Assembly: GCA_017517765.1 (NCBI GenBank)
Contig: JAFWYE010000006.1
Coordinates: forward strand, 496,001 to 560,000
Direction of reading: 5' to 3'
Source: Bacilli bacterium
GTDB taxonomy: Bacteria; Bacillota_I; Bacilli_A; RFN20; DUOF01
DNA: 64,000 nt
Positions 84-42,801 of the stretch are shown one piece after another; position 1 is the stretch's first letter, and every line of letters begins with the position of its first letter. The notes below the pieces were generated by a model. The model searched no databases and was not told the DNA's origin. It saw only the letters and a list, made by a program, of their open reading frames with translations. Position numbers and translations under genes: made by a program.

Positions 84-839
84 TCATAACTCATTTAAAA
101 TGTCATTAGCATTTTCAACTAACTTAGCGCCCTCTTTTATAAGAGTATTACACCCACTCTCATCATAAAGATTATTTGGCACGCAAAATACTTCTTTTCC
201 CATTTCTAGTGCTCTAGCCACCGTTATCATAGTTCCACTTTTCTTTTTAGCTTCAGTTACAAGAACTCCACTACTAAGACCCGCAACTATTCTATTTCGT
301 ATAGGAAAATTCTCCTTATTAGGTTGCACTTTATTAGGATATTCACTTATTACTAATCCTTTTAATTCTATTTCTTTTTGCAATTCCTTATTACAATTTG
401 GATAAAACACATCTAACCCATTTCCTAAAACAGCAATAGTTTTACCATTTTTTTCTAAAGCCGTTTTGTGAGCTATTGCATCTATCCCTTGAGCCAGTCC
501 ACTTATTATTGAACATTTTTTGTCTACTAATTGGGCAGTTAAATCCTTAGTAACTTTTTCTCCATACTCACTATTTTCTCTGCTTCCAATAACTGCAATA
601 GACATCTCTTCAAGCAATGATTCATCGCCTCTATAAAAGAGAACAAAAGGCGGCTTATAAATGTTCTTTAACTTACTAGGATAATTATCGCTTATTAAAG
701 TAATATACTTTTCATTATGGTTTTCTAACATACTGTCCATCTCATCGCTATCAACTTTTTCTTTCATATTAATAGCCTTATAAATCCTATCCCAATCTCC
801 TTCATATTTAATTGCAAAATAAACTAAAATTTTTTCCAT
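84..839 (-). CDS. dprA: DNA-processing protein DprA/Smf
   Basis: DprA binds incoming single-stranded DNA in the cytoplasm during natural transformation and loads RecA on it. The 251-residue protein carries the DprA Rossmann-like fold: VIGSRENSEYG near residue 83, SGLAQGIDAIAH near 113, AVLGNGLDVFYP near 136, FPIRNRIVAGLS near 178 and TEAKKKSGTMITV near 195. It is shorter than many homologs (about 280-360 residues) and ends right after the Rossmann domain, so the C-terminal winged-helix domain seen in many DprA proteins is absent. An AGGAGGG ribosome binding site precedes the ATG. It lies between tex and topA on the same strand. The family call is secure; whether the cell is naturally competent cannot be judged from here. 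Confidence 0.95.
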   Translation of the reverse strand: MEKILVYFAIKYEGDWDRIYKAINMKEKVDSDEMDSMLENHNEKYITLISDNYPSKLKNIYKPPFVLFYRGDESLLEEMSIAVIGSRENSEYGEKVTKDLTAQLVDKKCSIISGLAQGIDAIAHKTALEKNGKTIAVLGNGLDVFYPNCNKELQKEIELKGLVISEYPNKVQPNKENFPIRNRIVAGLSSGVLVTEAKKKSGTMITVARALEMGKEVFCVPNNLYDESGCNTLIKEGAKLVENANDILNEL

Positions 840-5735: not shown

Positions 5736-5767
5736 AAAAAGAAGCAATTATTTTTGCTTCTTTTTAT
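5734..5767. terminator. Bidirectional intrinsic terminator
   Basis: GAAGCAA (5741-5747) pairs with TTGCTTC (5754-5760), flanked by a run of A on the left and T on the right, so the hairpin works for the plus-strand gene ending at 5735 and the minus-strand gene ending at 5748. The stop codon of the latter lies in the loop. Confidence 0.8.
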
Positions 5768-6773: not shown

Positions 6774-6798
6774 ATTTTCATCTCCTTGCGACACGTAT

Positions 6799-6827
6799 AT
6801 TTTAATATATACTCTTATTTCTTTCAA
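6799..6827 (-). promoter_or_regulatory. Promoter of paralog A
   Basis: On the minus strand TTGAAA and TAAAAT are separated by 17 bases. The -35 region is embedded in a 15-base block (TCAATGATTATTTTT on the plus strand, 6824-6838) that recurs exactly at the promoter of paralog B. Confidence 0.65.
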
Positions 6828-6844: not shown

Positions 6845-6871
6845 AAAAAAGAAGCTTACCTGCTTCTTTTC
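6845..6871 (-). terminator. Intrinsic terminator of paralog B
   Basis: GAAGC (6851-6855) pairs with GCTTC (6862-6866), extended by A/T pairs, with a T-run on the minus strand. The stop codon of the upstream gene (6856-6858) sits in the loop. It separates the two paralogs into individual transcripts. Confidence 0.7.
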
Positions 6872-26480: not shown

Positions 26481-26505
26481 TAAAAAAAGCGAGCTTTAGC
26501 CCGCT
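26481..26505 (-). terminator. Intrinsic terminator of the lipoprotein operon
   Basis: AGCGAGC (26488-26494) and GCCCGCT (26499-26505) pair with one G-U, loop TTTA, followed by seven T residues on the minus strand. It ends the four-gene lipoprotein transcript just upstream of the str promoter. Confidence 0.85.
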
Positions 26506-26512
26506 TAATATC

Positions 26513-27820
26513 TTATTTAAAAATACCTTTATATGCTTCCTTTAAAGTTTCCTCTAAAAGTTCAACATTCATATCATCAACATAGTGTAATAATACACTT
26601 GTATCACTAACTTTTGAATGAAGCTTTTCTAGAGCCATTTGCTTATCGTCGATATTTTCAGTAGAAGAATCAACAACTTTTACAAGAACTATATAGCAAG
26701 TAGAATCAGGCCCTGAAGCATGAATTATATCTTTTGGATCAAATGAATTTAAATCTGCAGTTCTTGTAACTACAAAATTTCCTAATTCCTCATATTTATT
26801 TCCAAATATATCTTCCATCTTTTGGTTGCCTACAAGCATATCTTTAATATCATCTCTAAGAAGTTGATTTAAAAGATTTTCGTATAATACTTCCGTTGTA
26901 TCTTTATTAATAAGTTGCTTATCTAAATATTCCGTTTCATTAGCAAGCTTAATTTGATAGTCAAAACCATCTTTTAAACTACACATAGTAGAGTTAGCAC
27001 ATGTTGTAAATTTAGATAGAGCAGAATCATAACTACTCTTAGTAGGACTACAACTTTCAATCATATCTCCATTTTCATCAAGATAATATTCGTTAGGCAA
27101 CCCTAAGTTTTCGCAATATTGTCTCCCTAGTTCTTTTCTAGCTTCAGCTCTTTTTGTTTCTTCTAAATCTTCTAGACTATCATATTCTCCAGAAAAAATA
27201 TCTTGAACAAGCTCTTCCATATCTTCTAAATTTTCAGCTGAATATACAGTAATAATTCTAGACTTACTCTTGTTTAAAATAGTGCTCTTATTATTAGAAA
27301 TATAGTCTTCTTTTAATAATTCTATATATATATCATAATCTAAATTATTAGCTATATATTTAGAGTAATCATATTTAAGGCCTAAGTCATAAGTCACCCC
27401 TGTTGCACCTGTTATAGGATCTCCAATTTGGGCCATTTGACTTCTTAGTGTTGCAACCAAAAGTTCTTCATCAAATTCACCATTTACCTTGTAACTATTA
27501 TCATTGATGAAATTATCCTCAAAATATTTCTTCAATTTATAATTATAAGTGGATGTTAACTCACCAGACTTATAGCCACTTTTTTCTTTAAGAATGATTT
27601 TAACTAATTCTAGTATAAACGCCTTATTTTTAGGCGAAGTACTAGCTTGAGAAATATAATCATATATATCTTGAGTAGTAATTGTTTCGTTCAACTTGCT
27701 ACCACTTACTACTTCCTTGCTTTCTGTTAATTTCACATTATAGCCTTTATCACAACTACATCCAACCAAAGTTAGAGCAAGTAATGCAGAAAAAATTAAT
27801 TTAAAACCTTTTTTCATCAT
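26513..27820 (-). CDS. Lipoprotein, diverged SurA/PrsA-like N-terminal-domain protein (fourth of four)
   Basis: A 435-residue exported lipoprotein: signal peptide with lipobox LTLVGC, lipidated Cys21, mature start CSCDKG. The N-terminal part has a helical region with VNGEFDEELLVATLRSQM near residues 115-132, closely matching VNGKFDEELFVLAMKK in the third lipoprotein gene (29551-30864), so the two are paralogs. No clear parvulin active-site segment was recognised. Several cysteines in the middle (YCENLGLP, ESCSP, TTCANSTMCSL) could form disulfides. Its ATG overlaps the stop codon of the gene before it (TAATG). It is last in the operon. Confidence 0.75.
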   Translation of the reverse strand: MMKKGFKLIFSALLALTLVGCSCDKGYNVKLTESKEVVSGSKLNETITTQDIYDYISQASTSPKNKAFILELVKIILKEKSGYKSGELTSTYNYKLKKYFEDNFINDNSYKVNGEFDEELLVATLRSQMAQIGDPITGATGVTYDLGLKYDYSKYIANNLDYDIYIELLKEDYISNNKSTILNKSKSRIITVYSAENLEDMEELVQDIFSGEYDSLEDLEETKRAEARKELGRQYCENLGLPNEYYLDENGDMIESCSPTKSSYDSALSKFTTCANSTMCSLKDGFDYQIKLANETEYLDKQLINKDTTEVLYENLLNQLLRDDIKDMLVGNQKMEDIFGNKYEELGNFVVTRTADLNSFDPKDIIHASGPDSTCYIVLVKVVDSSTENIDDKQMALEKLHSKVSDTSVLLHYVDDMNVELLEETLKEAYKGIFK

Positions 27821-29517
27821 TAATTACCTCCTTGAGTATCTGTTGTGTAATAAGAGAAACCTTCGCCATACTTATATGTACATTTGTTATTTCCTTTTTT
27901 GTCTTCTTGTAAACAAGATAGTAAAGGTATTTCTTTAGCTACAACATTATTTTTATACCATAAAGTATTAGTATAAGAATCATAATAAGAATCAGTGTCA
28001 ACTTGTTTTTTGAATTCAGCAAGTTCTTTTGAGGCATTCATATATTGTTTAATCATTTTTTCAATATCCTTATTTAGAATTTTGAAGTTACCATTTTTTG
28101 TTGATTGACCCATGTAATATTCAAATATAGCATAGTCAACCAATTTTTCGCTTTCGCTAGCATTTTTTATAAACTTTTCTGCAAATGACTTTATTTCTTC
28201 TACGCGAGTCTCTGTATCATCGCCTTGCTCTGCGTAAATTAAATCATTGTCATTTTCATTAACTTCATCACTAAAATATTTCTCATAGCCTGTAGTGAAT
28301 GGTGTCATATGAATTGTCATAATGTGTAAACCATTATTATCTCTATAAACAACATATGGTTTATTTTCCTCATTAACAAGCACATATTGTTCTTCTCCTG
28401 CTGGAGCAGTTTGATATCCACCTTTAATTTCGTTTGGAACCAAAACATCTAATCCTAATTCAGTAGCACTAATAACTCTATCTTGAGCACCATACTTAGC
28501 AACTTCTTCAGCAGTAAGTGTAATGAACTTAGGTGTTCTAGTATTTAATAGTGCATTAAATAATATGTTTCTATAATATACTTTTGAATTTGTATATACA
28601 GTGTCTTCTTCATCACTATAACATTCAGTCTTTTCATAATTTCCTTCCATTCCTAAAATGTATGACAAAGGAATAGATTCAAGCCCCTCACTATAGAACG
28701 TGTCTAAAGTTGCAGTATAGTTGTTAGTTTTTAAACCTAATTTAGTTTTTAATTCATTATATTTTCCTTCAATAATGCTGCTATATCCAATAAGAGCATA
28801 TCTAAGTTCATTAGTAATTTTAGAATCATTTAAAGTTACAATGCCAACTTCTCCACCACTAGCTTTAGTATCGCCTTTAGAATAAGCCATGGCCACATTG
28901 TAATATTGCTCTCCTTCTACAAGTTCCAAAATTGCATCATGTATACTTTCTGCTTCACTACTTGAAATAGTTAATGCATATAAATCAGTTGCAGTAGATG
29001 AACTTCCACTAACAGATAAATTTATATCTCCTACATGATATAGTTGATTAGAGTTAACATATTCAGTTATATATGAAGCGCTTTTTGCCTCTAAAAAGAT
29101 TGTCTTAGCAGCTTCTTTTTGTCTTTCATATAGTTTTTGAGCTTTTAATTCCTCTAAGCTTTCAACCTCTGCTTCTTCTAAAGCCTTAGTTAAATCCTCT
29201 TTATAATCCGTTCCGTTTAGCTCAGCATCTGCTTTAATTTTATTAACAAAAGCGTTAATTTCATTTTCCACAACAGCCTTCATAGCATCTGTCACAGGAA
29301 TAGAGCTCTCTATAAGAGCTTTTTCTAGCAACTCATATATATGCTTTGCAACAGTAGTATCATATAATGAATAATCATATACGTGTTCAGCTGTTATTTT
29401 CTTTCCATTAACAATAGCAAGAACATTAGTATCAGAAGGTTTGTTACAAGAACATGCGCCCAAACACAAACTACAAAGCAGCAATGTCGATAATGGTATC
29501 AATTTTCTTTTTTGCAT
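27820..29517 (-). CDS. Lipoprotein with PrsA/SurA-like fold and probable degenerate parvulin domain (third of four)
   Basis: A 565-residue exported lipoprotein: lipobox LCLGAC, lipidated Cys22, mature start CSCNKP. The N-terminal SurA/PrsA-like chaperone region is indicated by VLAIVNGKKITAEHVYDY followed by a long amphipathic helical stretch and SLEELKAQKLYERQKEAA. A parvulin-like segment follows (GEQYYNVAMAYSKGDTKASGGEVGIV, about residues 200-225). The C-terminal part has a further mixed domain with HIMTIHMTPF. It is expected to work on the outer face of the membrane in protein folding. AGGAGGG precedes the ATG. Confidence 0.75.
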   Translation of the reverse strand: MQKRKLIPLSTLLLCSLCLGACSCNKPSDTNVLAIVNGKKITAEHVYDYSLYDTTVAKHIYELLEKALIESSIPVTDAMKAVVENEINAFVNKIKADAELNGTDYKEDLTKALEEAEVESLEELKAQKLYERQKEAAKTIFLEAKSASYITEYVNSNQLYHVGDINLSVSGSSSTATDLYALTISSSEAESIHDAILELVEGEQYYNVAMAYSKGDTKASGGEVGIVTLNDSKITNELRYALIGYSSIIEGKYNELKTKLGLKTNNYTATLDTFYSEGLESIPLSYILGMEGNYEKTECYSDEEDTVYTNSKVYYRNILFNALLNTRTPKFITLTAEEVAKYGAQDRVISATELGLDVLVPNEIKGGYQTAPAGEEQYVLVNEENKPYVVYRDNNGLHIMTIHMTPFTTGYEKYFSDEVNENDNDLIYAEQGDDTETRVEEIKSFAEKFIKNASESEKLVDYAIFEYYMGQSTKNGNFKILNKDIEKMIKQYMNASKELAEFKKQVDTDSYYDSYTNTLWYKNNVVAKEIPLLSCLQEDKKGNNKCTYKYGEGFSYYTTDTQGGN

Positions 29518-29550
29518 TTTTTTCCCTCCTTATTTCCCTTTTATACAATA

Positions 29551-30864
29551 TTAATCAGTAAATACATCAGGATATAATTTTTTCAAATACTCATTAACAG
29601 CATCATCGTGAATTGTAATTGTATTCTTATATTGCTCTAAATAATGTGATACAGCACCAGTTGCCAAAGTTGATGAACCTGCTAATATTTCTATTACGTC
29701 ATTTTCATTTGCACTGTAATTATCTGCATTAATAACTTTAAATCTAACTATACTATAAGTATATGACCCACTATCACTTGTTTCTGTCAATAAAACATCA
29801 TTAGCGTCTACAGTAGCTCCTGCATTGGCACTAACTAAATAGTACCAATCGCCGATTTTAATTGCACGTTTTGTTTCATTTTCAGGATTGCTTAGATTTA
29901 GCAATCTGTTAGTAATAGTAGTACTTACAACTGAAGCGTTCTCACTATCAGAACTTATAACTTTATCAAAATTAAATTCCAAATCCTCAACCGCTTTAAT
30001 TTTTTCTTTTAGCCCTTCTTCCAAAGTGCGAGTATAGTTTGCTGTATACTCTGCCGCTAATTCTTGGCTATAGTCTTTAGCTCCATCAATAATTTTTTGA
30101 TATTCACCATTTACTGCTGCTTTTAATTCTTCTTTTAATCTATCTGCATAATCAGTAAAGTCAATATCCTCTATAGTGCTATTAGTAACCGCAGCAGCTA
30201 TTTCATCTCTTATGCCACGCATAAAATTTCTTACATTTATTTCTACTTTTTCTTCTTCACCATTATTATCTACAGTGTAATCATCATAATCAGATTCAAT
30301 TGACGAGCTTACTGTTAAATATTCTACATCTCTAATTTTCTTAGTATTAACAACATTTTTACTATCTTTTAAAGTTACATCTTTGATATATTTTTGTTTT
30401 AACAATGTAGATATTATTTCCACTTTAAATTTTCTATTTATAAGATCAGAATAATCATCTTTTGTAACGTTATATCCATCTTTTTTCATTGCTAGCACAA
30501 ATAATTCTTCATCAAATTTTCCATTTACTTGATATTCATCAGAATTCTTTAGTTCTTCTAATTTTTCTTCAACCATAGTATTATATTTTGTTTTCCATGG
30601 ATCTTTTTCAAGATCCAATACAGTTGAACCAACTATATCAACCAATTTATCAGCAGCAGCCTTACTTCCAACGTCATTAGCAATCATTGCATTGTAAATA
30701 TCTAATAAAGATAAATCGCTTGCATCATCTGTTAATCCAGAAAGAATGTCTGCATCTGTTATTTCTGCTACATTAGGTTTTCCATTATCACAAGAACATC
30801 CAGCAATACATAAAGTAGAAAGTAATATTGATAATGATAAAACTTTTAATCCATTTTTCTTCAT
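29551..30864 (-). CDS. Lipoprotein, diverged SurA/PrsA-like paralog (second of four)
   Basis: A 437-residue exported lipoprotein: lipobox LCIAGC, lipidated Cys23, mature start CSCDNG, the same pattern as its neighbours. It is similar to the last gene of the operon in the region VNGKFDEELFVLAMKKDGY and in an early LSLLDIYNAMIAND helix. The central 200 residues are helical and charged; no cysteine besides those at the N-terminus stands out. No clear catalytic motif was seen, so a chaperone-like rather than isomerase role is inferred. AAGGAGGGAG precedes the ATG. Confidence 0.7.
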   Translation of the reverse strand: MKKNGLKVLSLSILLSTLCIAGCSCDNGKPNVAEITDADILSGLTDDASDLSLLDIYNAMIANDVGSKAAADKLVDIVGSTVLDLEKDPWKTKYNTMVEEKLEELKNSDEYQVNGKFDEELFVLAMKKDGYNVTKDDYSDLINRKFKVEIISTLLKQKYIKDVTLKDSKNVVNTKKIRDVEYLTVSSSIESDYDDYTVDNNGEEEKVEINVRNFMRGIRDEIAAAVTNSTIEDIDFTDYADRLKEELKAAVNGEYQKIIDGAKDYSQELAAEYTANYTRTLEEGLKEKIKAVEDLEFNFDKVISSDSENASVVSTTITNRLLNLSNPENETKRAIKIGDWYYLVSANAGATVDANDVLLTETSDSGSYTYSIVRFKVINADNYSANENDVIEILAGSSTLATGAVSHYLEQYKNTITIHDDAVNEYLKKLYPDVFTD

Positions 30865-30879
30865 CTTCTAACTCCCTCC

Positions 30880-33609
30880 TTATGCACTCTTAACAACAAC
30901 GTATATTTTTATTGTTGTTCCACAATCTGTTTCTGTAATGGTTAATGTATTAACAGCGTCGGCATATGTTCCGCTTCTTCCATATTTTAATGAATCTATA
31001 ACATAACCTGTTTCAACCTCTAATTTACTTGTATCAATGTTAACTATATTTTCATCATCGTCAGCAGGATTATAAGTATATTCACTTTGAGCTTCTTGAG
31101 AATCGCTACTTATTTCCCCATCAAGTGGTTCTCCATTTTCATCTACAAATACATATTCGAAGTTAGTAGCCTTAGGCCTTACATAAACTGTAATCGTAAC
31201 TCCTTGAGAAACATTAATACCATCAAGAGTAAATGTGTATTCATCCTCATATGTTCCATTAGTGTCCGCATCAAATCCTAAAATATCAAATGCTTCAGAT
31301 GTGATTTTATCTTTTTCCACAGTATAAGTATTAGAAGCTCCTCCAGTAGAACTATAATCAGCATATTGCTCGTTAGTGTTAGCAACTAGTGATGAACTAG
31401 CCACTGCATCTGTACCTTCATACTTATAAGTGAATTTAAGTTGATATCTTCCTGACTCAGACTTAGTAACAATTTTAGCATAGAACAATGTGTGATTATA
31501 GATGCTAGAATTAGTTAAGTCAGCTTCTACAACTTCTGTTCCAGGTTGGAAATCTTTAGTTGTATACCAGCCTTGGAACTCATAACCTTCTTTTAGTTCC
31601 ATATCATCTTTAGTAGGTAAAGTTACAGGTTCACCAATATAAGCCCATTGAGCAAAACCGCCAGCAATATTGTCATCTTTCTTGAATTTTACAACATCAG
31701 TAGATGTAGTAATCTTTGTATATGACGTACCACTTGCTAACAAATCAGTATGGTAATAATAAGATAATTTAACTTGATATCCCTTACCATAAACATATCT
31801 ACACAAATTACCTGTAGATGTTGAGTTATTAATTGGGGCATATGCTTCTGAAGGAAGTACTACTGCACACTCATATGGTTTAATACCCATTTGTACAAGC
31901 TTTGTTTGCGAAACACTTAATTTATCAGCATGCTTATTGAAAGCTGTTAACAATTTATTATCATGAACTTTATTTAGATATTCTCTCTTTGAAGCGATAT
32001 ATGCTTCAATTGCTGTTTTAAGACCATTATTAGACCAAGATATATTACTATCTTCCATATAATCTTCTAACATCTTATAGCTTAATAAGCTTTCTTCTCC
32101 AACTTCTCCACCACTTCCAGCAGTAACGTAACTCTTTATATATCCTTCAATTTCAGATATTAACTTATTCTTAGATGCATTTGTATGCTCCACGTTAAAT
32201 GCAGGATCCTCTGCATAAGAAATGTCTTCATCTTCATCACTTGGATTAATAGTGAAATATTTTTTAGCCGCTTCTATATCTTGTAAAGCAGACACATCAA
32301 TAGTTAAGAAATGTAACCAAACATCATTACTACTACCTTTAGCAGCAACAAAGAATATTGGACTTCCTTTTTCATCAGTTAAAATCCACTTAGATGTGAA
32401 TGTATTTGCATCTGTATAAGTTCTAATTTCAACATAATTTTTAGCACCATCAGCAATAGCTTCGTCTTCAGTATTATAACCAATTACTGAAAGTCCTGGT
32501 TTATTAAATGCTCTGTTGAAAATTATTGATCTTGCATAAGCATTATAGTTTGAGTTTAGGTTATTCAAATTACTATCATATTCAGTTATACCACTGTTTG
32601 ATACATAGTCTTCACTACCAACATAACCAATATAATGGAAGTCTCCAGTACTAGTTTTATTTGCAACATCGCCTAATTTGTCAACCAAATCCATAGTCAC
32701 AAGATTCAAGCCATTTTTGTAATATTTAGCAATTTGGTCTTCTTGACCTTCGTAAACATCTTCATTTATAAAGCCAACACTCTTAAGTGTGTCATACTTA
32801 GTTGTTCTACCCCACTTATAGTAAGTAGTTTCATTTGCTTCTCCTGCGTTCTCAACAACCTTTTCTGTATATGCATCGAAAATGTATGTACCATATAAGA
32901 ACTCATCAACAAAACTTGTTGTAGTATCCATATAGTAAGCTCCACCACTAGCAGCGCTTCCTGTATCATCAGTCTCATGTTCAGCCACATATGAAAATCT
33001 ATCACCATTTTTAAATCTTGTGATAACATCAAAAATCTTTTCAGCCTCTGCTTGAGAAACATTTACGTTATTAGCAATTTTATTTCCATTTGTGTTATCG
33101 TCTAATTTAACCAAAACATGTCTAACAAGATATGGCAATCTATTTGCAATGTAATCATCATAAAATTCAGTTTTATGAGTTTCCCAATATTGCTCATTCA
33201 ATCTTGTTAATTTTTGCTCATAAATGATATTGGCCTTCATTTCATCAATAGACTTATATCCTTTATCTTCTAGCAATTTCTCTCTAGCATCTTTTACACT
33301 AATACCATTGCTTTGCGCATATGTCTCTACTTCTTCTTCAAAGGTTTCTTCAGCCATATCAGCAGCAGTTTGAATATTCTTAGTTGTTTCCATGCTTGAT
33401 TCAACAACTAATCTCAAAACTATAGAAAATGCTTCATTTGCGCCTGTACCTGTAGACAAAAGTTGATTATATAATTGTTCAGCAGTATACTTCTTATTTC
33501 CAACTTCTAAGACAGTATCTTTAACATTCTTGTCTCCATCGCCACAACCACCAAGTAGTGCAAGCGAAAGAGCAAGTAATGATACGAACGATAAATTCTT
33601 CTTATTCAC
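30880..33609 (-). CDS. PrsA-like parvulin foldase lipoprotein with C-terminal InlB-type repeat region (first of four)
   Basis: A 909-residue exported lipoprotein: lipobox ALLGGC, lipidated Cys22. The N-terminal chaperone region has VGNKKYTAEQLYNQL and a helical part; the parvulin domain begins RHVLVKLDD (163-171) and continues with FKNGDRFSYVAEHETDDTGSAASGG (199-223), close to PrsA. Unlike PrsA (about 300 residues) it is three times longer. After the middle region comes an InlB B-type repeat (EGYEFQGWYTTKDF...LFYAKI) and two related beta-rich repeats ending ITVYVRPK and IKIYVVVKSA. Translation starts at GTG 33609 after AGGGAGG. A promoter precedes it, so it leads the operon. Confidence 0.82.
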   Translation of the reverse strand: MNKKNLSFVSLLALSLALLGGCGDGDKNVKDTVLEVGNKKYTAEQLYNQLLSTGTGANEAFSIVLRLVVESSMETTKNIQTAADMAEETFEEEVETYAQSNGISVKDAREKLLEDKGYKSIDEMKANIIYEQKLTRLNEQYWETHKTEFYDDYIANRLPYLVRHVLVKLDDNTNGNKIANNVNVSQAEAEKIFDVITRFKNGDRFSYVAEHETDDTGSAASGGAYYMDTTTSFVDEFLYGTYIFDAYTEKVVENAGEANETTYYKWGRTTKYDTLKSVGFINEDVYEGQEDQIAKYYKNGLNLVTMDLVDKLGDVANKTSTGDFHYIGYVGSEDYVSNSGITEYDSNLNNLNSNYNAYARSIIFNRAFNKPGLSVIGYNTEDEAIADGAKNYVEIRTYTDANTFTSKWILTDEKGSPIFFVAAKGSSNDVWLHFLTIDVSALQDIEAAKKYFTINPSDEDEDISYAEDPAFNVEHTNASKNKLISEIEGYIKSYVTAGSGGEVGEESLLSYKMLEDYMEDSNISWSNNGLKTAIEAYIASKREYLNKVHDNKLLTAFNKHADKLSVSQTKLVQMGIKPYECAVVLPSEAYAPINNSTSTGNLCRYVYGKGYQVKLSYYYHTDLLASGTSYTKITTSTDVVKFKKDDNIAGGFAQWAYIGEPVTLPTKDDMELKEGYEFQGWYTTKDFQPGTEVVEADLTNSSIYNHTLFYAKIVTKSESGRYQLKFTYKYEGTDAVASSSLVANTNEQYADYSSTGGASNTYTVEKDKITSEAFDILGFDADTNGTYEDEYTFTLDGINVSQGVTITVYVRPKATNFEYVFVDENGEPLDGEISSDSQEAQSEYTYNPADDDENIVNIDTSKLEVETGYVIDSLKYGRSGTYADAVNTLTITETDCGTTIKIYVVVKSA

Positions 33610-33705: not shown

Positions 33706-33732
33706 TTGACATTTAATATTAAATGTTATAGA
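33706..33732 (+). promoter_or_regulatory. Promoter with a perfect 18-bp palindrome in its spacer
   Basis: TTGACA (33706-33711) is followed by an extended -10 TGTTATAGA (TATAGA at 33727-33732). The perfect palindrome ACATTTAATATTAAATGT occupies 33709-33726, filling the spacer between the two boxes, as an operator would. The spacer is short (15 bases), which the extended -10 could offset. Confidence 0.5.
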
Positions 33733-33759
33733 CTAATTGTGTCTTTAGGAGTTGACGTT

Positions 33760-34215
33760 ATGAAATTTATATTTAAAAGAAAATACACACTTCCATTTAT
33801 GCTTTTTTTGGTTTTAGCAACACTTTGTTTTGCTTTTTATTATTTTGGTCCAAAATTCATTCACCAATCACCAGAATTTTATAGAAATGTTCTTATCATT
33901 TCTTTAATTGATTCTCTTCTTGTTGTTATGTTTGTAACGGGACTATATAGAGTAAATTATTTCTTGTATCACGATCATCTTGAAATAAAGCGTTCTTTAA
34001 GGAAACCAATAATCTTAAAATATGTACAAATAAAGCAAGTTAACGAAGTTAAAAACGACAAAGTCTTTCTAATCTTTGGAAAGCGTCCATCATTTAAATT
34101 AAAGTATGAGGAGAATGGAAGAATTAAGCATTACAGAATTAGATTGGCTAACCACGATTTGTTCAAACTTATACTTGAAAATGAAAAGAAAATCAGCGTG
34201 ACAACTAAATCATAA
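33760..34215 (+). CDS. Membrane protein with a PH-like cytoplasmic domain (bPH_2-type)
   Basis: A 151-residue protein with two transmembrane segments (LPFMLFLVLATLCFAFYYF and NVLIISLIDSLLVVMFVTGL) and a C-terminal soluble part of about 80 residues beginning FLYHDHLEIKRSLRKPIILKYVQIKQVNEV. A strand with an LEIKRSL start after paired helices is typical of bacterial PH-domain membrane proteins such as bPH_2. Function is unknown. ATG at 33760 is preceded by TTAGGAG with an 8-base gap; an 18-codon longer reading begins inside the promoter. It is the first gene of the plus-strand island and ends in its own terminator. Confidence 0.7.
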   Translation: MKFIFKRKYTLPFMLFLVLATLCFAFYYFGPKFIHQSPEFYRNVLIISLIDSLLVVMFVTGLYRVNYFLYHDHLEIKRSLRKPIILKYVQIKQVNEVKNDKVFLIFGKRPSFKLKYEENGRIKHYRIRLANHDLFKLILENEKKISVTTKS

Positions 34216-34227
34216 AAATCGAAAAAG

Positions 34228-34254
34228 ATCACATAATAAAAATGTGATTTTTTT
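34228..34254 (+). terminator. Intrinsic terminator after the PH-like membrane protein gene
   Basis: ATCACAT (34228-34234) and ATGTGAT (34242-34248) pair around an A-rich 7-base loop, followed by a T-run. The same arm sequences recur as a hairpin inside the next gene (34342-34360). Confidence 0.75.
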
Positions 34255-34270
34255 ATTTTATGGAGATACT

Positions 34271-34948
34271 ATGAACAAATTGATTGTTAAAAATATTTTT
34301 GCGGATTTTTTTAGTCAAAAATCCAGATTATTGATAGGTGCAATCACATATTATGTGATTTTATCTTTTGTTCCCGCTTTGATAGTTGCAAACAAGTTTT
34401 TCTTGCTCATAAATTGTGACTTTTCTAACACTTTAATTTCGAAAACGGGGAATTTGGAAACACCATTATCGCTACTTATAATATTATTTGTAACAATCTA
34501 TTTAACCTCTAAAATTTTCAACCTTTTTTCAAATAAAAATAACCGTTTTCTAGCCACTATAAAATCGTTTTTGTGGACTGCTTTATTTATCGTTGAATTA
34601 GTTATTTTTATCGCCTTATTTTCCATTGAAAATTTACTTCTTCAATTACTTTTTCAATCGATAATTTTATTACTTTTTTTATCAGAAATTTTAGCCATTA
34701 GATTCAAAAAAATTTCTTTTATTGGAATAGTTTCTTCTGCAATATTTTCAATAGTAATTTCCTGCTTTATATATACATTTGAGATAATCTCTCCACACAT
34801 TTTTGATTATGAAAATTATTATAGTTATCTTGCACCATTATTTCTAATAATATTAGAAATATATATTATTATAAATCTAATATATTTAAATTTAGTTTTT
34901 GTAAAAAATTTCCAATGCTTTTCCAGTATAAAAGTAATAAAAATGTAA
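34271..34948 (+). CDS. Compact YihY/BrkB-like multi-pass membrane protein
   Basis: A 225-residue protein with about six hydrophobic helices. The N-terminal RLLIGAITYYVILSFVPALIVA matches the start of the YihY/BrkB fold (AAALAYYTLLSLFP-type), and the C-terminal YYSYLAPLFLIILEIYIIINLIYLNLVF matches the family's YGSLAAVIVLLLWLY-type end. Members are usually 270-420 residues, so this one is short. The role of the family is unsettled (it was once thought to be ribonuclease BN). GGAGAT precedes the ATG. A terminator hairpin lies between it and the gene before it, so its promoter is unclear. Confidence 0.65.
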   Translation: MNKLIVKNIFADFFSQKSRLLIGAITYYVILSFVPALIVANKFFLLINCDFSNTLISKTGNLETPLSLLIILFVTIYLTSKIFNLFSNKNNRFLATIKSFLWTALFIVELVIFIALFSIENLLLQLLFQSIILLLFLSEILAIRFKKISFIGIVSSAIFSIVISCFIYTFEIISPHIFDYENYYSYLAPLFLIILEIYIIINLIYLNLVFVKNFQCFSSIKVIKM

Positions 34949-35054: not shown

Positions 35055-35083
35055 TTGAGTTTGAAGCCAGTATCTTTTATAAT
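35055..35083 (+). promoter_or_regulatory. jetABC promoter
   Basis: TTGAGT (35055-35060) and a perfect TATAAT (35078-35083) have a 17-base spacer. The predicted transcript begins about 16 bases before the jetA start codon and includes its GGGAG ribosome binding site. Confidence 0.7.
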
Positions 35084-35105
35084 TTCTTTGTCGGGAGTTG
35101 AGAAC

Positions 35106-36524
35106 ATGAATTTATTTGAAGCAATACCAAAAAATCTCTTCTCTATTTTCAATTCAAAAAATAGAGAGACATACGTAAATGCTTTATTTGCCTTAAGACA
35201 AAGTTTTAAGCAAGAATTAACAATTGAAAAAGAAAATCTAATTCGCCAACTTGCCAACAATCTTCACCAAGATTTATTAAATATGGACATGGAAGAAGCA
35301 GAAGAATTAAATGATGGCAAAAAGTTATCTAGAGATGCAATGTCTATGTCTAGATTCATGGTTAAAAGATTAGCGGAAACAGGTTGGATTGAATTTGAGT
35401 ATGGAGTTGACACGTCATTCAAGGAATATATAGCGCTTGCGCCATACTCTATCAAAATCATTAACACACTATACGCGATAGCGCTTGAAGATGAGCAAGG
35501 ATACAACACTTATATGTATTCTATATACTCTAACTTAGTTCAAGCTGATACAGAAAAGAAAGACTTCATGTATGCCGCATTGCTTAACGCATATGATAGA
35601 ACTGAGGAATTAGAAAACGAACTTAAAACTCTATATCATAACATAAGAAGAAAATATAATAAGTTAGGTTTCTTAATGAGTGTAAATGATGTTTTAGTGG
35701 ATCACTTTGATGATTATCAAAGAAAAATCATTACACAAATCTATATGCCATTAAAAACAAAAGACTCGCTTAATCGTTTCAAAGGTAACGTAGTAGAAAT
35801 TTTAATGCGTTGGCTTAGAACACCTGAATGCATTGATTCTTTAGAAAAGCAAGCAATGACATATCAAGCATTCAATTCATTTGACGATGTTAAAGATGCT
35901 ATCATAACTAAAATATACTTCATTGTCGATAAATTAAACGAACTTGAAGAAATGGTAGAAAAAATAGATATAAAGAACACTGAATACGTTAGTGCTACGG
36001 CAGAAAAAATGAGAACTCTATTAACAAATGACAAGAGCATAAAAGCCAAAATGTCTAGACTTATGGAAACATTAAAAGATTCTAATGCAGATGATACTCA
36101 AGATAAGATTTTAGAGTACTTCTACCCTAATATTGCCCTTGAATCTAGTGCTTATATGGATGATACAAGTTTATTTGTAAGAAGCTATAGTATCCAAGAA
36201 TTTAGTAGCGAACCATTATACATAGATGATGTATATGATGTGAGCATTGATACACAAGCTACTAGCTTTATTGAAAATATGAATAATAAATATTCAAACA
36301 AAAATGTAATTAACTTTGTAGAAGAAAAACTAGCAAACAAAAATGAACTTGATTCTAGCAAGTTTGCTATAAGTAGCGATGAAGAGTTAATATTAACCAT
36401 TCATTCAATGCTAAAAGGATGGGATAAAAATGTATTCTACAAAATTGATTTACAAGAAGGTAACGTTGGAGTAAATAGTTATTCAATACCTAGAATGACT
36501 TACTATAGAAGGAGGAAAATCTAA
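35106..36524 (+). CDS. jetA: Wadjet/MksF-like JetA family protein (kleisin subunit)
   Basis: JetA is the kleisin-like subunit that links the SMC arms in Wadjet/MksBEF complexes. The 472-residue protein starts MNLFEAIPKNLFSIFNSKNRETYVNALFAL and has the helical, charged sequence of the JetA family formerly called DUF5716, including WIEFEYGVDTSFKEYIALAPYSIKII. No catalytic motif is present, as expected. GGGAG precedes ATG 35106; the longer reading begins in the -35 box and is rejected. The stop codon overlaps the start of jetB (TAATG). Identity is strongly supported by the order JetA-JetB-JetC. Confidence 0.85.
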   Translation: MNLFEAIPKNLFSIFNSKNRETYVNALFALRQSFKQELTIEKENLIRQLANNLHQDLLNMDMEEAEELNDGKKLSRDAMSMSRFMVKRLAETGWIEFEYGVDTSFKEYIALAPYSIKIINTLYAIALEDEQGYNTYMYSIYSNLVQADTEKKDFMYAALLNAYDRTEELENELKTLYHNIRRKYNKLGFLMSVNDVLVDHFDDYQRKIITQIYMPLKTKDSLNRFKGNVVEILMRWLRTPECIDSLEKQAMTYQAFNSFDDVKDAIITKIYFIVDKLNELEEMVEKIDIKNTEYVSATAEKMRTLLTNDKSIKAKMSRLMETLKDSNADDTQDKILEYFYPNIALESSAYMDDTSLFVRSYSIQEFSSEPLYIDDVYDVSIDTQATSFIENMNNKYSNKNVINFVEEKLANKNELDSSKFAISSDEELILTIHSMLKGWDKNVFYKIDLQEGNVGVNSYSIPRMTYYRRRKI

Positions 36525-37189
36525 TGTGGCTAGATGAATATAATGAATTAAATAATGGTGAAAGAGAAAGATTTGCCAAACTAGTTAACTATCTATTAAA
36601 TAAGACTTATTTAACTAGAGAAATATATGAAGGAAAACAAGTAATTGGTAAAATTAATGCCGATTATAGATTTATCGAAAGATATATCACTTTATTTGAA
36701 GGTTATCTTAATGTTATAAATTATACATTAACAATTGATGAAGAACTTGGTGTAGTTTATCTAAGTAACGAATATGGATATAATAAAATGCATTTAGATA
36801 AACTTACCACTCTAGTATTATTTACACTTAGAACTATTTATGATGAAGAAAAAGAGAAGAATGCCTCTAAGAGCATTGTTTATATCAGCACAGCTTCTCT
36901 TATCTATAAACTATTAGAATTAAAGATAGTTAGTAAAAAGCCTACTATGAAAGATATCGTAGATAGTTTAAGATTACTTGTTAATCAAAATATATTAACT
37001 AAAATTGAAGGTTCTATTGATGAGTCAAGTTGTCAATTAGCTATACTTCCAACAATATTGCTTGCTGTAAGCAATGAAAAAGTTGATGCTATCTATTCAA
37101 TGGTATTCCAAAATGAACCAAATACAGATGAAGCGCCTAAATATGCAAATCAAGAAATTGATGAAAGTGTATTTAGCAACTTAGACTAG
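36524..37189 (+). CDS. jetB: Wadjet/MksE-like JetB protein (DUF4194)
   Basis: JetB is the KITE-type subunit that binds the kleisin in Wadjet/MksBEF complexes. The 221-residue protein has winged-helix-like features: LTREIYEGKQVIGKINADYRFIERYITLFEGYL, then DKLTTLVLFTLRTIYDEEKEK, a TMKDIVDSLRLLVNQNILTKIEG segment, and ends in an acidic tail. Size is normal for DUF4194. A GGAGG site in the end of jetA precedes its ATG, and the two genes overlap by one base. Confidence 0.88.
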   Translation: MWLDEYNELNNGERERFAKLVNYLLNKTYLTREIYEGKQVIGKINADYRFIERYITLFEGYLNVINYTLTIDEELGVVYLSNEYGYNKMHLDKLTTLVLFTLRTIYDEEKEKNASKSIVYISTASLIYKLLELKIVSKKPTMKDIVDSLRLLVNQNILTKIEGSIDESSCQLAILPTILLAVSNEKVDAIYSMVFQNEPNTDEAPKYANQEIDESVFSNLD

Positions 37190-37201
37190 GAGGTAGATTA
37201 A

Positions 37202-40200
37202 ATGAAAATTTTAAAGAGAATAGTTTTAATAAACTGGCACTATTTCACATTTGAAACATTAGAATTAGATACAATAAACTTCTTAACTGGAAAAAATGGT
37301 GCAGGTAAGACAACTGTAATTGACGCAATCCAATTATTGATGCTTGGAGATACAACTGGTCACTTCTTTAACAAGAGTGCAAGTGATAAATCATCTAGAA
37401 CTTTAAAGGGTTACTTGAGATGCGAAATCGGTGATGATGATAATGGAGACATGATTTATCTTAGAAAAGGTAGATTCACTTCATATGTTGCTGGCGAGTT
37501 TTACGATGATGTTAATAATGAATTTACTACAGTTGGTGTGGCATTTGATAACTTTGAAGATGGTAGTATGGATTACAAGTTCTTCAGTTATGAAGGCCCT
37601 TTCCCTGAAAATAAATTTGTTGAAAATAAACTTCCTCTATCTATAAAAGAGCTAAAAGTTTATTTATTAGACCACTACTATAAGAACCAAATAAACTTCT
37701 TTGAAACAAATAGTTCTTATAGGGAATTCTTAAAAGAAAAATTTGGTAGAATTTCTAATTCATTCTTTGGATTATTTAAAAAAGCAATTCCTTTCTCTCC
37801 AATTTCTAATATTGAAACATTTATTACTGAATATGTATGTGATGTTAATTCAACTATCGATATTGGAGCAATGCAAGAAAATATTAGAAACTATAAAAAA
37901 CTAGAAAGTGATAGCGAAACTTTATCAAGTAGAGTTGCTGCTTTACAAGAAATTAATGAAGCATATTTGTCTTGGAAAAACCAAGAAGACTCAATCCTTT
38001 CTCAAAAATACGTATTTGCTAGAAGTGATCTACAAATTAAAAATAAAAAATTATCTGATGCTAAAGACACTTTAGAAGAAGGTAAAAATGATTTAGGACA
38101 ATACGCGTTACTTATCAACAAATGCGAACAAGAAATAAGAAATCACATAACTGATAAAGAAAAATTATTACAAGAAAAATATTCTTTAGACATTTATCAA
38201 AAACAAGCTGCTATTGAAGAGAAAAAAGCAGAAGTTGAAGAAGAAATAAGGAAGCTACAAGAAAGTGTAGAATCTATTGTAATGAATATGGATAACTATC
38301 AATTACAATGGATGGGAACAATTAACAAAGTATTGAATGCAGATGAAATTCATGAATCTATTAGCGAATTAAAATCTCTTGCAAAAGGATATTATAAGAG
38401 AATTGAAAACTTCAACACTAACATTGATTTAGAAAACTTAGATTTATCTTATTTCACTGAAATGCAAGAAAACATCAATAATCTTAAATCTGAGATTAGT
38501 GGTGTATTACATGTATTAAAAGAAACATTAAGACAAAACGAAAAAAGAAAAAATGAATTAAGTTCTAACTTAGGTAATATTGAACGTGGTGTTAAAAACT
38601 ATGATTCTAGATTATTAACACTTAAAAATATTCTTGAAACTAGATTAAAAGAAAAATATCATCAAAATATTTCTGTTGATATTTTAGCTGATTTAATTGA
38701 GGTTAAAGACCCTGAGTGGAAAAATGCTATAGAAGGTTATTTATATGGCCAAAAATTCTATTTATTTGTAGATCCAGCATATTTTGAGGCTGCTTTAAAA
38801 ATCTATGATGAAGTTAAATTCGAATATAACCTATTTGACTTTGGTATTGTAGATTGTGAAAAAGTTTTACAATCTAATCCTAATATGATTAAAGGATCTC
38901 TTGCTGAAGAAATTTCTACAACAAATGAATATGCTAGAGCTTATATTAACTCTTTAATTGGTGCATTAATTAAATGTGACAGAGTTGAAGATTTAAGAAA
39001 ATATCCTAGATCAATTACAAAAACAGGTATGCTATATCAAGGCTATGTAGCAAGACAAATTAATAAAGAAAAATGGAGAAATCACTTTATTGGTGTTAAT
39101 TCATTCTCTAATGAAAAAGGTGTTCTTGCTGAAGAAATCACTTCATTAGAATATAATAATGCTCAAATTTATAAAGCTATCATTACATTTGAAGATGCTA
39201 GCAAAGTAGAAGTATTAAATACTAACGAATTAAAGTCTATGTCTGAAATTAGTAAGGTTTATAAACAAATGCCTTCACTAGTTGCTAAAAAAGATGAATA
39301 TGATGCTGAATTATCTAAGCTTGATCTTCAATACGTAGAAGTATTAGATGCAAGAATTGACAAAATGCAAACAAAGATTAGCGAATATGAAGCTCAAAAA
39401 GAAGAATTATTAACTAGCCAAGTAAAACAAAGAAGTGAATTAGACAGACTAGAAGAATATGATATTCCTCTATTCCAAGAAGAAGTTAAACTAGCTAAAG
39501 AAGTTATTTATAATAACTTTGAAAAATCTTGGATTATGTCTACTGGCGAACCATTCTTTATGGAAGAGCTAGACAGAGTTAAAAATATTGCTTCATTGTT
39601 AAGCCAATACAAAGTTAAATTAGATCACATCGATAGTCAAAATAAAGGATTAAGAGATAAGCTTATCATGCTTAGAACTCAATATAATTCTAAATATCAT
39701 ATCTCATACAATCCAAATGCTAATACAAATGAATTATATGATGATGAGCTAGCAGAATTATCAGGAAATAAATTAATTGATTACCAAGAAAAGATTGCCA
39801 TTGCTAAGGCTAATGCAATTGGACAATTTAAAGATGACTTCCTAGCTAAGTTAAAAGCTAACTTTGACAATGTAAGAATGCAAATAGAAGCATTAAATGA
39901 TGCATTAAGTGGTTCTACATTTGGTACTGACTCATATCACTTCACAATGAATCCTAGAACTGAATATAAGCAATACTATGAAATGATTACTGATCCATTA
40001 TTAATGGAAGGATATAGTGTTACTGAAGATGCATTCCAAGAAAAGTATAAAGATGCAATTGAAGATCTATTCAGACAAATAACTGTATCTGAAGATGCAG
40101 ATGTTCATGCTAGAACCGAGATTGAAAGAAATATTGCTAAATATACTGACTATCGTACATATTTGAAGTTTGACCTTATAGTTACTGACTTAGAGGGTAG

Positions 40201-40561
40201 AAAGCAACACTTATCTAAGACATTATTAAAGAAATCAGGAGGAGAAACTCAAACTCCATTCTATATTTCTGTTCTTGCTTCATTTGCTCAATTATATAGA
40301 ACAAATGATACAAGCAATACTAAGAATCAAACAATTCGTCTTATCGTATTTGATGAGGCCTTCTCTAAGATGGATAGCGAAAGAATTCAAGAGTCTGTTA
40401 AGTTGCTTAGAAACTATGGACTACAAGCAATTCTTAGTGCTCCACCTGAAAAGATGTCTGATATTGTACCTTTAGTAGATAATACTATTTGTATTGTACG
40501 TGATGACCAAAAATCTTATATAAGAAATTATGGCAACGATAAGCATAAAATCGTAGCTTAA
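37202..40561 (+). CDS. jetC: Wadjet/MksB-like JetC, SMC-like ATPase
   Basis: JetC is the SMC-like ATPase that extrudes DNA loops and, in Wadjet, detects small circular DNA. The 1119-residue protein has an N-terminal Walker A GKNGAGKTT (30-38), long coiled coils (about 240-480 and 680-930) around a hinge (DLIEVKDPEWKNAIEGYLYG), and a C-terminal signature SGGETQ (1012-1017) with Walker B LIVFDEAFSKMD (DE at 1051-1052). All key motifs are intact. AGGAGG precedes the ATG. It ends in a strong terminator and no JetD (TOPRIM nuclease) gene follows. Confidence 0.93.
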   Translation: MKILKRIVLINWHYFTFETLELDTINFLTGKNGAGKTTVIDAIQLLMLGDTTGHFFNKSASDKSSRTLKGYLRCEIGDDDNGDMIYLRKGRFTSYVAGEFYDDVNNEFTTVGVAFDNFEDGSMDYKFFSYEGPFPENKFVENKLPLSIKELKVYLLDHYYKNQINFFETNSSYREFLKEKFGRISNSFFGLFKKAIPFSPISNIETFITEYVCDVNSTIDIGAMQENIRNYKKLESDSETLSSRVAALQEINEAYLSWKNQEDSILSQKYVFARSDLQIKNKKLSDAKDTLEEGKNDLGQYALLINKCEQEIRNHITDKEKLLQEKYSLDIYQKQAAIEEKKAEVEEEIRKLQESVESIVMNMDNYQLQWMGTINKVLNADEIHESISELKSLAKGYYKRIENFNTNIDLENLDLSYFTEMQENINNLKSEISGVLHVLKETLRQNEKRKNELSSNLGNIERGVKNYDSRLLTLKNILETRLKEKYHQNISVDILADLIEVKDPEWKNAIEGYLYGQKFYLFVDPAYFEAALKIYDEVKFEYNLFDFGIVDCEKVLQSNPNMIKGSLAEEISTTNEYARAYINSLIGALIKCDRVEDLRKYPRSITKTGMLYQGYVARQINKEKWRNHFIGVNSFSNEKGVLAEEITSLEYNNAQIYKAIITFEDASKVEVLNTNELKSMSEISKVYKQMPSLVAKKDEYDAELSKLDLQYVEVLDARIDKMQTKISEYEAQKEELLTSQVKQRSELDRLEEYDIPLFQEEVKLAKEVIYNNFEKSWIMSTGEPFFMEELDRVKNIASLLSQYKVKLDHIDSQNKGLRDKLIMLRTQYNSKYHISYNPNANTNELYDDELAELSGNKLIDYQEKIAIAKANAIGQFKDDFLAKLKANFDNVRMQIEALNDALSGSTFGTDSYHFTMNPRTEYKQYYEMITDPLLMEGYSVTEDAFQEKYKDAIEDLFRQITVSEDADVHARTEIERNIAKYTDYRTYLKFDLIVTDLEGRKQHLSKTLLKKSGGETQTPFYISVLASFAQLYRTNDTSNTKNQTIRLIVFDEAFSKMDSERIQESVKLLRNYGLQAILSAPPEKMSDIVPLVDNTICIVRDDQKSYIRNYGNDKHKIVA

Positions 40562-40719: not shown

Positions 40720-42801
40720 ATGCTAAAAGAAGAAATTTTATACTTAGAAAGGGTCAATAATCTAATTGATAAACAGCTAGAACATGATAAGCTGCAATTA
40801 GAACATTACATGGAAGAAATAAAAATTATTCCAGATGATGATGAAAACAAATTCTCAATGACAGAAAAATGGATTGACCTATACCTTGCAAGTATTGCTT
40901 CACTAAAAAGACACAAAGATAAACCATACTTTGCTAGAATTGATTTCAAAGATGAAACAATGAAAAATAAAGATCAACTTTATATTGGCAAGCTATCAAT
41001 GATTGATGAAAACAATGATTGCGTAGTAATCGACTGGAGAACACCTATTGCCAACTTATATTACGATAGCAGCCTAGGTGATACTTCATACAAAACAAAT
41101 GATGGCAGTTACATCCATGGTAACCTATCATTGAAAAGAGTTTACACAATAGAAAACTCTAAGTTACTTGATTATATAGATGTTCATTCCACTAGTGACG
41201 ATGAACTATTAAAGCCATTCCTTGGAGTAAATGCAGATAATAAAATCAAAAACATAGTCTCATCTATTCAAAAAGAGCAAAACGAAATAATCCGTGACTC
41301 ACTATATAAAAATATTGTAGTGCAAGGAGTTGCAGGTAGTGGAAAAACAACAGTAATGCTTCATAGAATTGCCTACCTAGCATACAACTACCAAGACCTA
41401 TTTACTACAAATCAATATCTAGTACTAAGCCCTAACAACTTATTCACAGATTATATCTCAAGCATTCTCCCAGATTTAGAAGTTGATAAAGTAAAACAAG
41501 CAACTTTTGAAAACATCTTTAAAGAATATTTAAACTTCAAATTCAATCCTACATTCCTAACTAGAAATAAGTCTAATGATTATGACTATGTTAGTGAATA
41601 CAAATCAAATAAAGAGATGATAAATAAAATTGATAACTACTACAAAAAGTATGAATCAAAAATAATAGATAGAGATATCACTTATAAAGATATAGTAATA
41701 ATATCTAAAGAAGATGTTAGAAATACCTTTACAAAAAACAGTAATGATCCATTTGAAATTAAGATAAAAAAATTAATTAATGATCTATATTCATTAACCC
41801 AAGAAGATAGTTTTAGACTAATAGCAAATATAAATAAGCAAATTAATAATCTTACTATTCAAAACCCAAGTAAGAGAAAAGAATATTTAGACCTTGGATA
41901 TGAATCTAAACAACTATTTATAAAAGGTATGAAAGAGGTAATAAAGAATCATTTCAAAGTCTTTGATAACAATATATATAAACTATACGTAGAATTTATA
42001 TCAGACTTAGATAATAACTCAGTAAAAGAGGCAACACTAGCTAATATAGACAAAAAGAAATTTGATTACGATGATCTAGCTCTTCTAATATACTTAAAAT
42101 ACCTAATAAATGGTTCAAAGAATTATGATTCATATATCTCAATAAGCATAGATGAAGCTCAAGACTTAGGATACACACACTTTGTAGCCCTTAAGAAACT
42201 ATTCAGAAGAGCTTACTTTACAATAGTGGGTGACTTATCTCAATCAATATATGCATATCGAGGAATTAGACATTGGGACGACATAAATAACTTATTTAGC
42301 AATGATATCCTATATCTGTCTAAATCATACCGTAACACAATAGAAATTATGGAATACGCTAACAAAATATTGGAATACTTACAAGTAAGCAAAGCAACAC
42401 CAGTTATAAGACATGGCGATGAAGTAAATGAAATAAAATATTCTAATAAAGCAAAAACAATACTAGAAAGAATAAATAAATATAAAGAGAACCACAATTC
42501 TATAGCTATAATATGTAAAAGCAAAGACGAAGTAGATATACTATATAAAGAATTATCAAAGAGCATAAACCTAACTAAGTTAGATGAAACTACACTTAAA
42601 TATGAAGGTGGGTTATGCATCCTTCCTATATATTTATCTAAAGGATTAGAATTTGATTGTGTAATACTAACGGATGTAGATGATACAAATTACAATAAAG
42701 ATAACATATTAGATATGAAGCTACTATATGTAGGAATAACAAGAGCACTTCATAACCTTGATATCCTTTATAAAGAGTCTAAACAAGAATTATATAAATA
42801 A
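40720..42801 (+). CDS. helD: RNA polymerase recycling ATPase HelD (UvrD-like superfamily 1)
   Basis: HelD removes stalled or non-productive RNA polymerase from DNA using ATP. The 693-residue protein has the family pattern YFARIDF....DQLYIGKLSMID...CVVIDWRTPIANLYYDS (about 70-115), then the P-loop GVAGSGKTTVMLHRIAYLAY (203-222), SIDEAQDLGY (Walker B), GDLSQSIYAYRGI (motif III) and the C-terminal motifs LSKGLEFDCVILTD and YVGITRALHNLDILYK. The N-terminal segment has the short coiled coil that enters the polymerase secondary channel. It is somewhat short (usually about 700-770). It is alone on its transcript, downstream of jetABC. Confidence 0.92.
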   Translation: MLKEEILYLERVNNLIDKQLEHDKLQLEHYMEEIKIIPDDDENKFSMTEKWIDLYLASIASLKRHKDKPYFARIDFKDETMKNKDQLYIGKLSMIDENNDCVVIDWRTPIANLYYDSSLGDTSYKTNDGSYIHGNLSLKRVYTIENSKLLDYIDVHSTSDDELLKPFLGVNADNKIKNIVSSIQKEQNEIIRDSLYKNIVVQGVAGSGKTTVMLHRIAYLAYNYQDLFTTNQYLVLSPNNLFTDYISSILPDLEVDKVKQATFENIFKEYLNFKFNPTFLTRNKSNDYDYVSEYKSNKEMINKIDNYYKKYESKIIDRDITYKDIVIISKEDVRNTFTKNSNDPFEIKIKKLINDLYSLTQEDSFRLIANINKQINNLTIQNPSKRKEYLDLGYESKQLFIKGMKEVIKNHFKVFDNNIYKLYVEFISDLDNNSVKEATLANIDKKKFDYDDLALLIYLKYLINGSKNYDSYISISIDEAQDLGYTHFVALKKLFRRAYFTIVGDLSQSIYAYRGIRHWDDINNLFSNDILYLSKSYRNTIEIMEYANKILEYLQVSKATPVIRHGDEVNEIKYSNKAKTILERINKYKENHNSIAIICKSKDEVDILYKELSKSINLTKLDETTLKYEGGLCILPIYLSKGLEFDCVILTDVDDTNYNKDNILDMKLLYVGITRALHNLDILYKESKQELYK

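Follow-up and report, generated by a model that had tools for sequence, protein, structure and literature searches.

The question raised by this locus is why four lipoprotein genes should follow one another in the window, i.e. the whole 64,000-nucleotide stretch of contig JAFWYE010000006.1 analysed here, where they fill positions 26513-33609 on the minus strand. An earlier annotation made from the letters alone (the sequence-only reading) took them for four diverged PrsA/SurA-like lipoproteins and proposed an export-folding system dedicated to a particular cell-surface load. The locus holds a real, conserved pair of PrsA-type proteins, A and B, which is doubled here. The preferred reading, to which a probability of roughly 65% is given, is a tandem-doubled A-B foldase module in which A and B act together, with A1 catalytic and A2, B1 and B2 scaffold-like.

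The four open reading frames (ORFs) are transcribed in the order P1 > P2 > P3 > P4. P1 is homologous to P3 (phmmer 1.7e-17) and P2 to P4 (phmmer 3e-6), so the gene row reads A1-B1-A2-B2. The features are as follows:

30880..33609, minus strand: P1 = A1, PrsA-like parvulin foldase lipoprotein of 909 residues, predicted catalytic member (Pfam Rotamase_3, model, catalytic residues)
32860..33138, minus strand: N-terminal part of the P1 parvulin domain, residues ~158-250 (Pfam 162-237, PDB profile, model)
32362..32859, minus strand: insert within the P1 parvulin domain, about residues 251-416, boundaries approximate (structure alignment, invariant columns)
32287..32361, minus strand: final strands of the P1 parvulin domain, residues ~417-441, which carry H433 (model)
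30883..31857, minus strand: P1 C-terminal extension, about residues 585-909 (outside the A profile; predicted local distance difference test, pLDDT, mostly <50)
29551..30864, minus strand: P2 = B1, second PrsA-fold lipoprotein of 437 residues, without recognisable parvulin sequence (model, fold match)
27820..29517, minus strand: P3 = A2, PrsA-like, 565 residues, catalytic His replaced by Asp and Phe by Leu (A profile E 2.6e-98; residues)
26513..27820, minus strand: P4 = B2, second B copy of 435 residues (B profile E 9.9e-39)
26487..26506, minus strand: terminator-like hairpin behind P4, before rpsL (terminator scan)

The row of lipoprotein genes described in the sequence-only reading is confirmed, and the four genes form a close-packed cluster ending at the terminator-like site. 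They are separated by 15 bases, then 33 bases, then a 1-base overlap, and a GGAGG-type site, read by eye, precedes each of the four starts; A1-B1 and A2-B2 are presumably on the same transcript. All four products carry a PrsA-type lipoprotein leader with a lipobox, by sequence reading and by pattern, and the mature N-termini given in the sequence-only reading are all present (CGDGDK in P1, CSCDNG in P2, CSCNKP in P3, CSCDKG in P4). The VNGxFDEEL motif assigned to two paralogues is likewise found, as VNGKFDEEL in P2 and VNGEFDEEL in P4.

P1 has no phmmer match to P2 at 0.01, and the copies within each family are about 20% identical (P1-P3 21%, P2-P4 22%). Profile searches of the window's genome find two copies each of A and B and nothing else of full length; an extra 1e-4 match on contig C5 covers the first 97 positions only. 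At least two proteins had been said to show parvulin segments. This holds for P1, the only one of the four to pass the Pfam parvulin cut-off (Rotamase_3, 22.7 vs 22.5 bits, hence just above it), while P3 has no Pfam parvulin match of its own and is joined to the parvulins through the A family. In that family 71 of 81 rows match Rotamase_3 at E 0.01, and the A profile retrieves S. aureus PrsA (2jzv) from the PDB at 7.8e-8. For B, 0 of 78 rows match a parvulin family at E 0.01 and the profile finds no PDB parvulin; lacking this signature, B is filed as a PrsA-fold partner rather than as a parvulin. The relatedness of A and B rests on fold and on shorter relatives, A' and B', described below. The locus alignments omit one row each: L087, with its open 5' end, is missing from the A rows (79 of 80, alignment labelled A2), and the split L068 from the B rows (76 of 77, alignment A3). 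A contig scan with P3 alone as query found no relative. PF00639 gave nothing at 0.001 against the window's genome, which is no evidence of parvulin absence, since the family is too diverged for that profile. Weak Pfam matches (FliL, MTHFR_C, others) occurred in single members only and were dismissed as chance.

The P2 model, built on a 78-row alignment, has a pLDDT of 80.3 and a predicted template modelling score of 0.73. In Foldseek, PrsA chains occupy ranks 1-15 (the E. faecium peptidylprolyl isomerase (PPIase) 9ibn counted), with 5tvl as the best PrsA (E 1.5e-5); by VIA, S. pneumoniae PrsA gives Z 10.5 with 241 residues aligned at a root-mean-square deviation (rmsd) of 6.9, spanning residues 51-432. 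The large rmsd would fit a hinge between domains. As modelled, P2 has the whole PrsA fold, i.e. an N-C foldase domain with an inserted parvulin-fold domain. The sequence-only reading made the PrsA/SurA fold of the second and fourth proteins its decisive point; the P2 model bears it out, and P4 would share the fold as a P2 homologue. P3, too, would have the PrsA fold through homology only. The P2 and P1 models resemble the SurA fold with Z 5-7, and absence from fold-match lists is given no evidential weight.

The P1 model has a mean pLDDT of 61.1 with a good core, the low mean being due to the residues from about 579 on, which are unmodelled. The best matches of the core (residues 30-539) are again PrsA (Foldseek 1.9e-3, none <0.001; Z 9.4, 266 aligned), so that the modelled core appears to match the PrsA fold, more weakly than P2 does. 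Residues 158..441 can be superposed on SurA's first parvulin domain (172..274) with 101 aligned and an rmsd of 2.8. The model contains one parvulin domain, and the alignment of this span to a single SurA domain means that about 165 residues are inserted inside it. A PRN-FN-FN motif is conserved in the insert of the A family, and its arginine, R360, is invariant in 81 rows. Within the C-terminal extension, a Listeria-Bacteroides repeat-like stretch is observed at residues 656-699; against PF09479 it scores E 2.5e-4, under the cut-off, on the protein and 27.2 bits, just above the cut-off, in the genome search. Four such repeats are present in one 1217-residue ORF just outside the window (G000:C1:487288-488562).

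The pair is not peculiar to this genome. In the order, the A profile is found at 1e-5 in 93 of 98 genomes, the window's included, and the B profile in 95; three genomes (G062, G075, G094) are without both and two (G004, G055) without A only. Scanning public genomes turned up 184 relatives of A; they were ranked by similarity to a single A protein, and the 80 best were kept. Their records bear names such as Erysipelotrichaceae or Bacillales bacterium metagenome-assembled genomes, and the one named genus, Candidatus Onthovivens, is placed by NCBI under Bacilli, Caryophanales incertae sedis. The synteny that had been suggested as a check is evident: B is the next same-strand gene after A in 77 of the 80 kept loci, and the remaining three (L064, L094, L100) are cut off by a contig end. 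The gene downstream of B is hit (HIT) at 69 of the 80 loci; 8 reach a contig end there and 3 have another gene. Upstream of A, a divergent sufC (SufC) occurs at 68, a contig end at 5 and another gene at 7. The A-B pair is thus nearly universal in the order and usually stands between divergent suf genes and hit, and a single pair at this locus looks like general housekeeping. The window's cluster has left the suf-hit site and has a JetABC set on one side and the rpsL row on the other, with hit-like genes elsewhere.

Doubling is far rarer. More than one A locus occurs in 3 of the 98 genomes only, the window's (G000), G001 and G002; double A matches in G033, G068 and G072 proved to be two pieces of one gene. 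G002, from another genus of the same family, has the identical four-gene order. In G001 the row breaks off within A2, where its contig ends; the remainder of A2, with B2 and hit after it, lies at the end of a second contig. A single A-B pair adjoins suf genes in G003. Trees made by a quick method (43 A rows, 41 B rows) contain an A2 clade of the three genera (99), a weaker A1 clade (87) and a B2 clade (97); these clades indicate a doubling common to the three genera. The most economical interpretation is that PrsA duplicated long ago into A and B, that both then grew in the order, and that the pair was finally doubled in tandem in the family.

Shorter relatives occur in the class, where a profile built from short B-like proteins (alignment A4) was run against 346 genomes. 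It matches 43 of them at 1e-35 or better, all in families f25 (28) and f20 (15), counted by hand. In the loci read, B' (about 290 residues) follows a parvulin protein, A' (about 330 residues). Both suf and hit flank the pair in seven loci (L130, L132, L134, L135, L136, L137, L140), and in L129 and L131 only part of these neighbours is present. A parvulin match over the cut-off is obtained for 5 of 5 tested A' and 0 of 5 B'. When the leaders are removed, profile comparison aligns A' with B' over 259 columns (E 3.1e-24); A is likewise matched to A' (5.9e-28), and B to B' along 74 columns at the C-terminal end (5.1e-9). Three candidates were left out of A4: L139 (254 residues), with neither a parvulin-like partner nor suf neighbours, and L133 and L138, for which only an A'-like protein was obtained.

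The catalytic residues distinguish the two A copies, and P1 is the only one of the four proteins with a recognisable set of them. PMC11853100 lists those of PrsA as His, Asp, Met, Phe and His. P1 has H164, D215, F237 and H433 at catalytic positions; judged by spacing, F233 occupies the place of the Met. Across the A alignment, H, D and F at the positions of H164, D215 and F237 are each conserved in 80 of 81 rows, and 74 rows have H at the H433 position. Only P3 departs from this at the first His, where it has D, and at the Phe, where it has L; its residue at the D215 position is unsure, since one alignment gives D and another G. In a 23-row alignment the first His is replaced by D, E and Q in A2 of G000, G001 and G002, respectively, and is H in all three A1 and in the single A of G003. 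Judging from these residues, A2 is probably non-catalytic. By eye, several A' of other families also lack the first His, and loss of catalysis is accordingly not a rare event. B cannot be aligned to the catalytic positions. The special features here are the tandem doubling and the catalytic-residue loss in A2.

Taken as a mechanism, the preferred module would work as follows. The A and B products would be lipid-anchored on the membrane's outer face, A as a parvulin foldase with a large insert and B as a PrsA-fold partner whose parvulin part has no recognisable sequence. Polypeptides leaving the Sec channel would be received in the cradle of N- and C-terminal helical domains, with A and B probably acting jointly, possibly as a heteromer. 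A1 would supply prolyl isomerisation, and A2, B1 and B2 holdase or scaffold surface. What is proposed is thus a general post-translocational foldase system with one predicted catalytic and three scaffold-like subunits. Joint function is favoured by the nearly invariant gene pair, by the joint doubling and by covariation: in 54 of the 61 loci with a complete set of nine genes, taken without near-copies, the distances of A covary with those of B (r 0.87, and a partial r of 0.80 once the SufB, MnmG, SufS and SufC background is taken out). Nine other protein pairs range between -0.26 and 0.46 in the same test.

Several observations weigh against this module. The motifs attributed to all four proteins hold within each of the two families and do not join them, as the A and B profiles give no direct match once leaders are removed (6% probability); a match of 98.6% probability with leaders kept was rejected because it rested on the leader peptides. 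The trees give no clean single duplication: two f2-family rows join copy 1 in the A tree (91), and G001_B1 joins copy 2 in the B tree (85), with long branches. A kept His is no proof of activity, and the H433 position is Phe in 7 of 81 A rows. Finally, the covariation may merely reflect the fast rate shared by surface proteins; SufD, equally fast, lacks such covariation, and is one control only.

Among the other explanations, a system dedicated to one surface load, with the extra pair and the P1 extension tailored to it, would account for doubling and divergence in three genera only and for a P1 repeat-like stretch of the kind present four times nearby. It is nevertheless rather unlikely, given a single pair at a housekeeping locus in nearly every genome of the order. 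Furthermore, no surface gene is recognised beside the window's cluster, which adjoins the rpsL-rpsG-fusA-tuf row and, past two ORFs without Pfam match, JetABC. As the pair is housekeeping-like, the dedicated-cargo proposal of the sequence-only reading is unsupported. Simple dosage, with a redundant second pair retained for more foldase, would agree with the same cluster, the same spacing and presumably the same transcript; copies only about 20% identical, and three A2 all without the catalytic His, make it decidedly unlikely. The PrsA fold might also have been kept for another job, such as that of surface lipoproteins or assembly factors. The P1 extension and large conserved insert point that way, as does the weak fold resemblance between P2 and Mpn444, an essential Mycoplasma lipoprotein (9gn0; Z 4.5, 240 aligned), but the PrsA matches stand well above the latter (Z 9-10.5) and the conservation of catalytic residues in 80 of 81 A rows leaves this explanation very improbable.

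The preferred foldase module admits a stronger form, held here only tentatively and well short of even odds, in which A and B are obligate unlike halves of a heteromeric PrsA, catalytic plus pseudo-parvulin, across the order and, as a shorter version, in further families of the class. If so, the doubled unit would be a four-subunit cradle with one catalytic member. Work on PrsA treats it as a homodimer that can often do without its isomerase activity; a split into catalytic and non-catalytic PrsA folds, encoded together, would allow a direct test of cradle versus isomerase roles, and the family that doubled the pair with further loss of catalysis adds to it. The B family, which has no Pfam name, now has a likely function. 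No paper on the A-B pair was found in an open-licence library, and one may be in print elsewhere.

As for the surroundings, the hairpin 3' of P4 lies ~140 bases ahead of the rpsL ORF that opens the row taken to be rpsL-rpsG-fusA-tuf, these gene names being assigned from the sequences; it is plausible and unproven, the scan having given 3 such sites vs 1.7 expected. On the other side, two plus-strand ORFs without Pfam match (33706-34215, conserved in G001 and G002, and 34244-34948) separate the cluster from JetA, JetB and JetC, a Wadjet-type SMC system (35055-40561, plus strand; PADLOC E 1.4e-124, 1.5e-64 and 0) that is also near the lipoprotein cluster in G001 and G002. A UvrD-like helicase (40720-42801) follows JetC in place of JetD, and PF09983 (JetD_C) matches in 0 of 4 family genomes and, in the control rings, in 1 of 14. 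Elsewhere in the window, the adjacent minus-strand ORFs 5748-6827 and 6856-7896 have similar beginnings (IVYSDNIIPFKE / IVYADTVLPLKE), apparently another tandem duplication.

Among known systems, SurA is soluble and periplasmic, with two parvulin domains; the P1 and P2 models resemble it in fold, and the proteins here differ in that all four have lipobox leaders and that the P1 model has one parvulin domain. With Bacillota PrsA (5tvl, 9ibn, 5htf, 4wo7) they share the predicted lipid anchor and the N-C helical foldase domain with an inserted parvulin domain, matched over the whole length by P2. Unlike these, two dissimilar members are nearly always adjacent here and A-B is doubled in tandem; A has a large insert in its parvulin domain and B is without parvulin sequence. 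PrsA is described in PMC12445088 as a bowl-shaped dimer whose NC domain is the proposed carrier of the essential chaperone function, PPIase-site mutations having little effect on secretion or growth. In Listeria PrsA2, according to PMC12826049, dimerisation forms the foldase pocket and matters most for the virulence role and toxin secretion. The expectation of one or two PrsA in Bacillota is roughly right, the table of PMC12445088 recording a single PrsA for several species, two each for L. monocytogenes and S. pyogenes (PrsA1/2) and three for B. anthracis (PrsAA/AB/AC). These sets likewise put several PrsA in one cell, and are set apart by description, no adjacent A-B unit appearing in the account given there. 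S. pneumoniae PrsA, which retains only the catalytic Asp (PMC11853100), parallels A2 in its natural loss of catalytic residues; the description in that source includes no clustered catalytic paralogue, whereas A2 has A1. A comparable joint unit is E. coli PpiD-YfgM, in which a PpiD-type NC-domain protein works with a partner as one unit at the Sec translocon (PMC9643414). There, YfgM is a tetratricopeptide repeat (TPR) protein at a Gram-negative inner membrane, whereas the partner here is a second PrsA fold.

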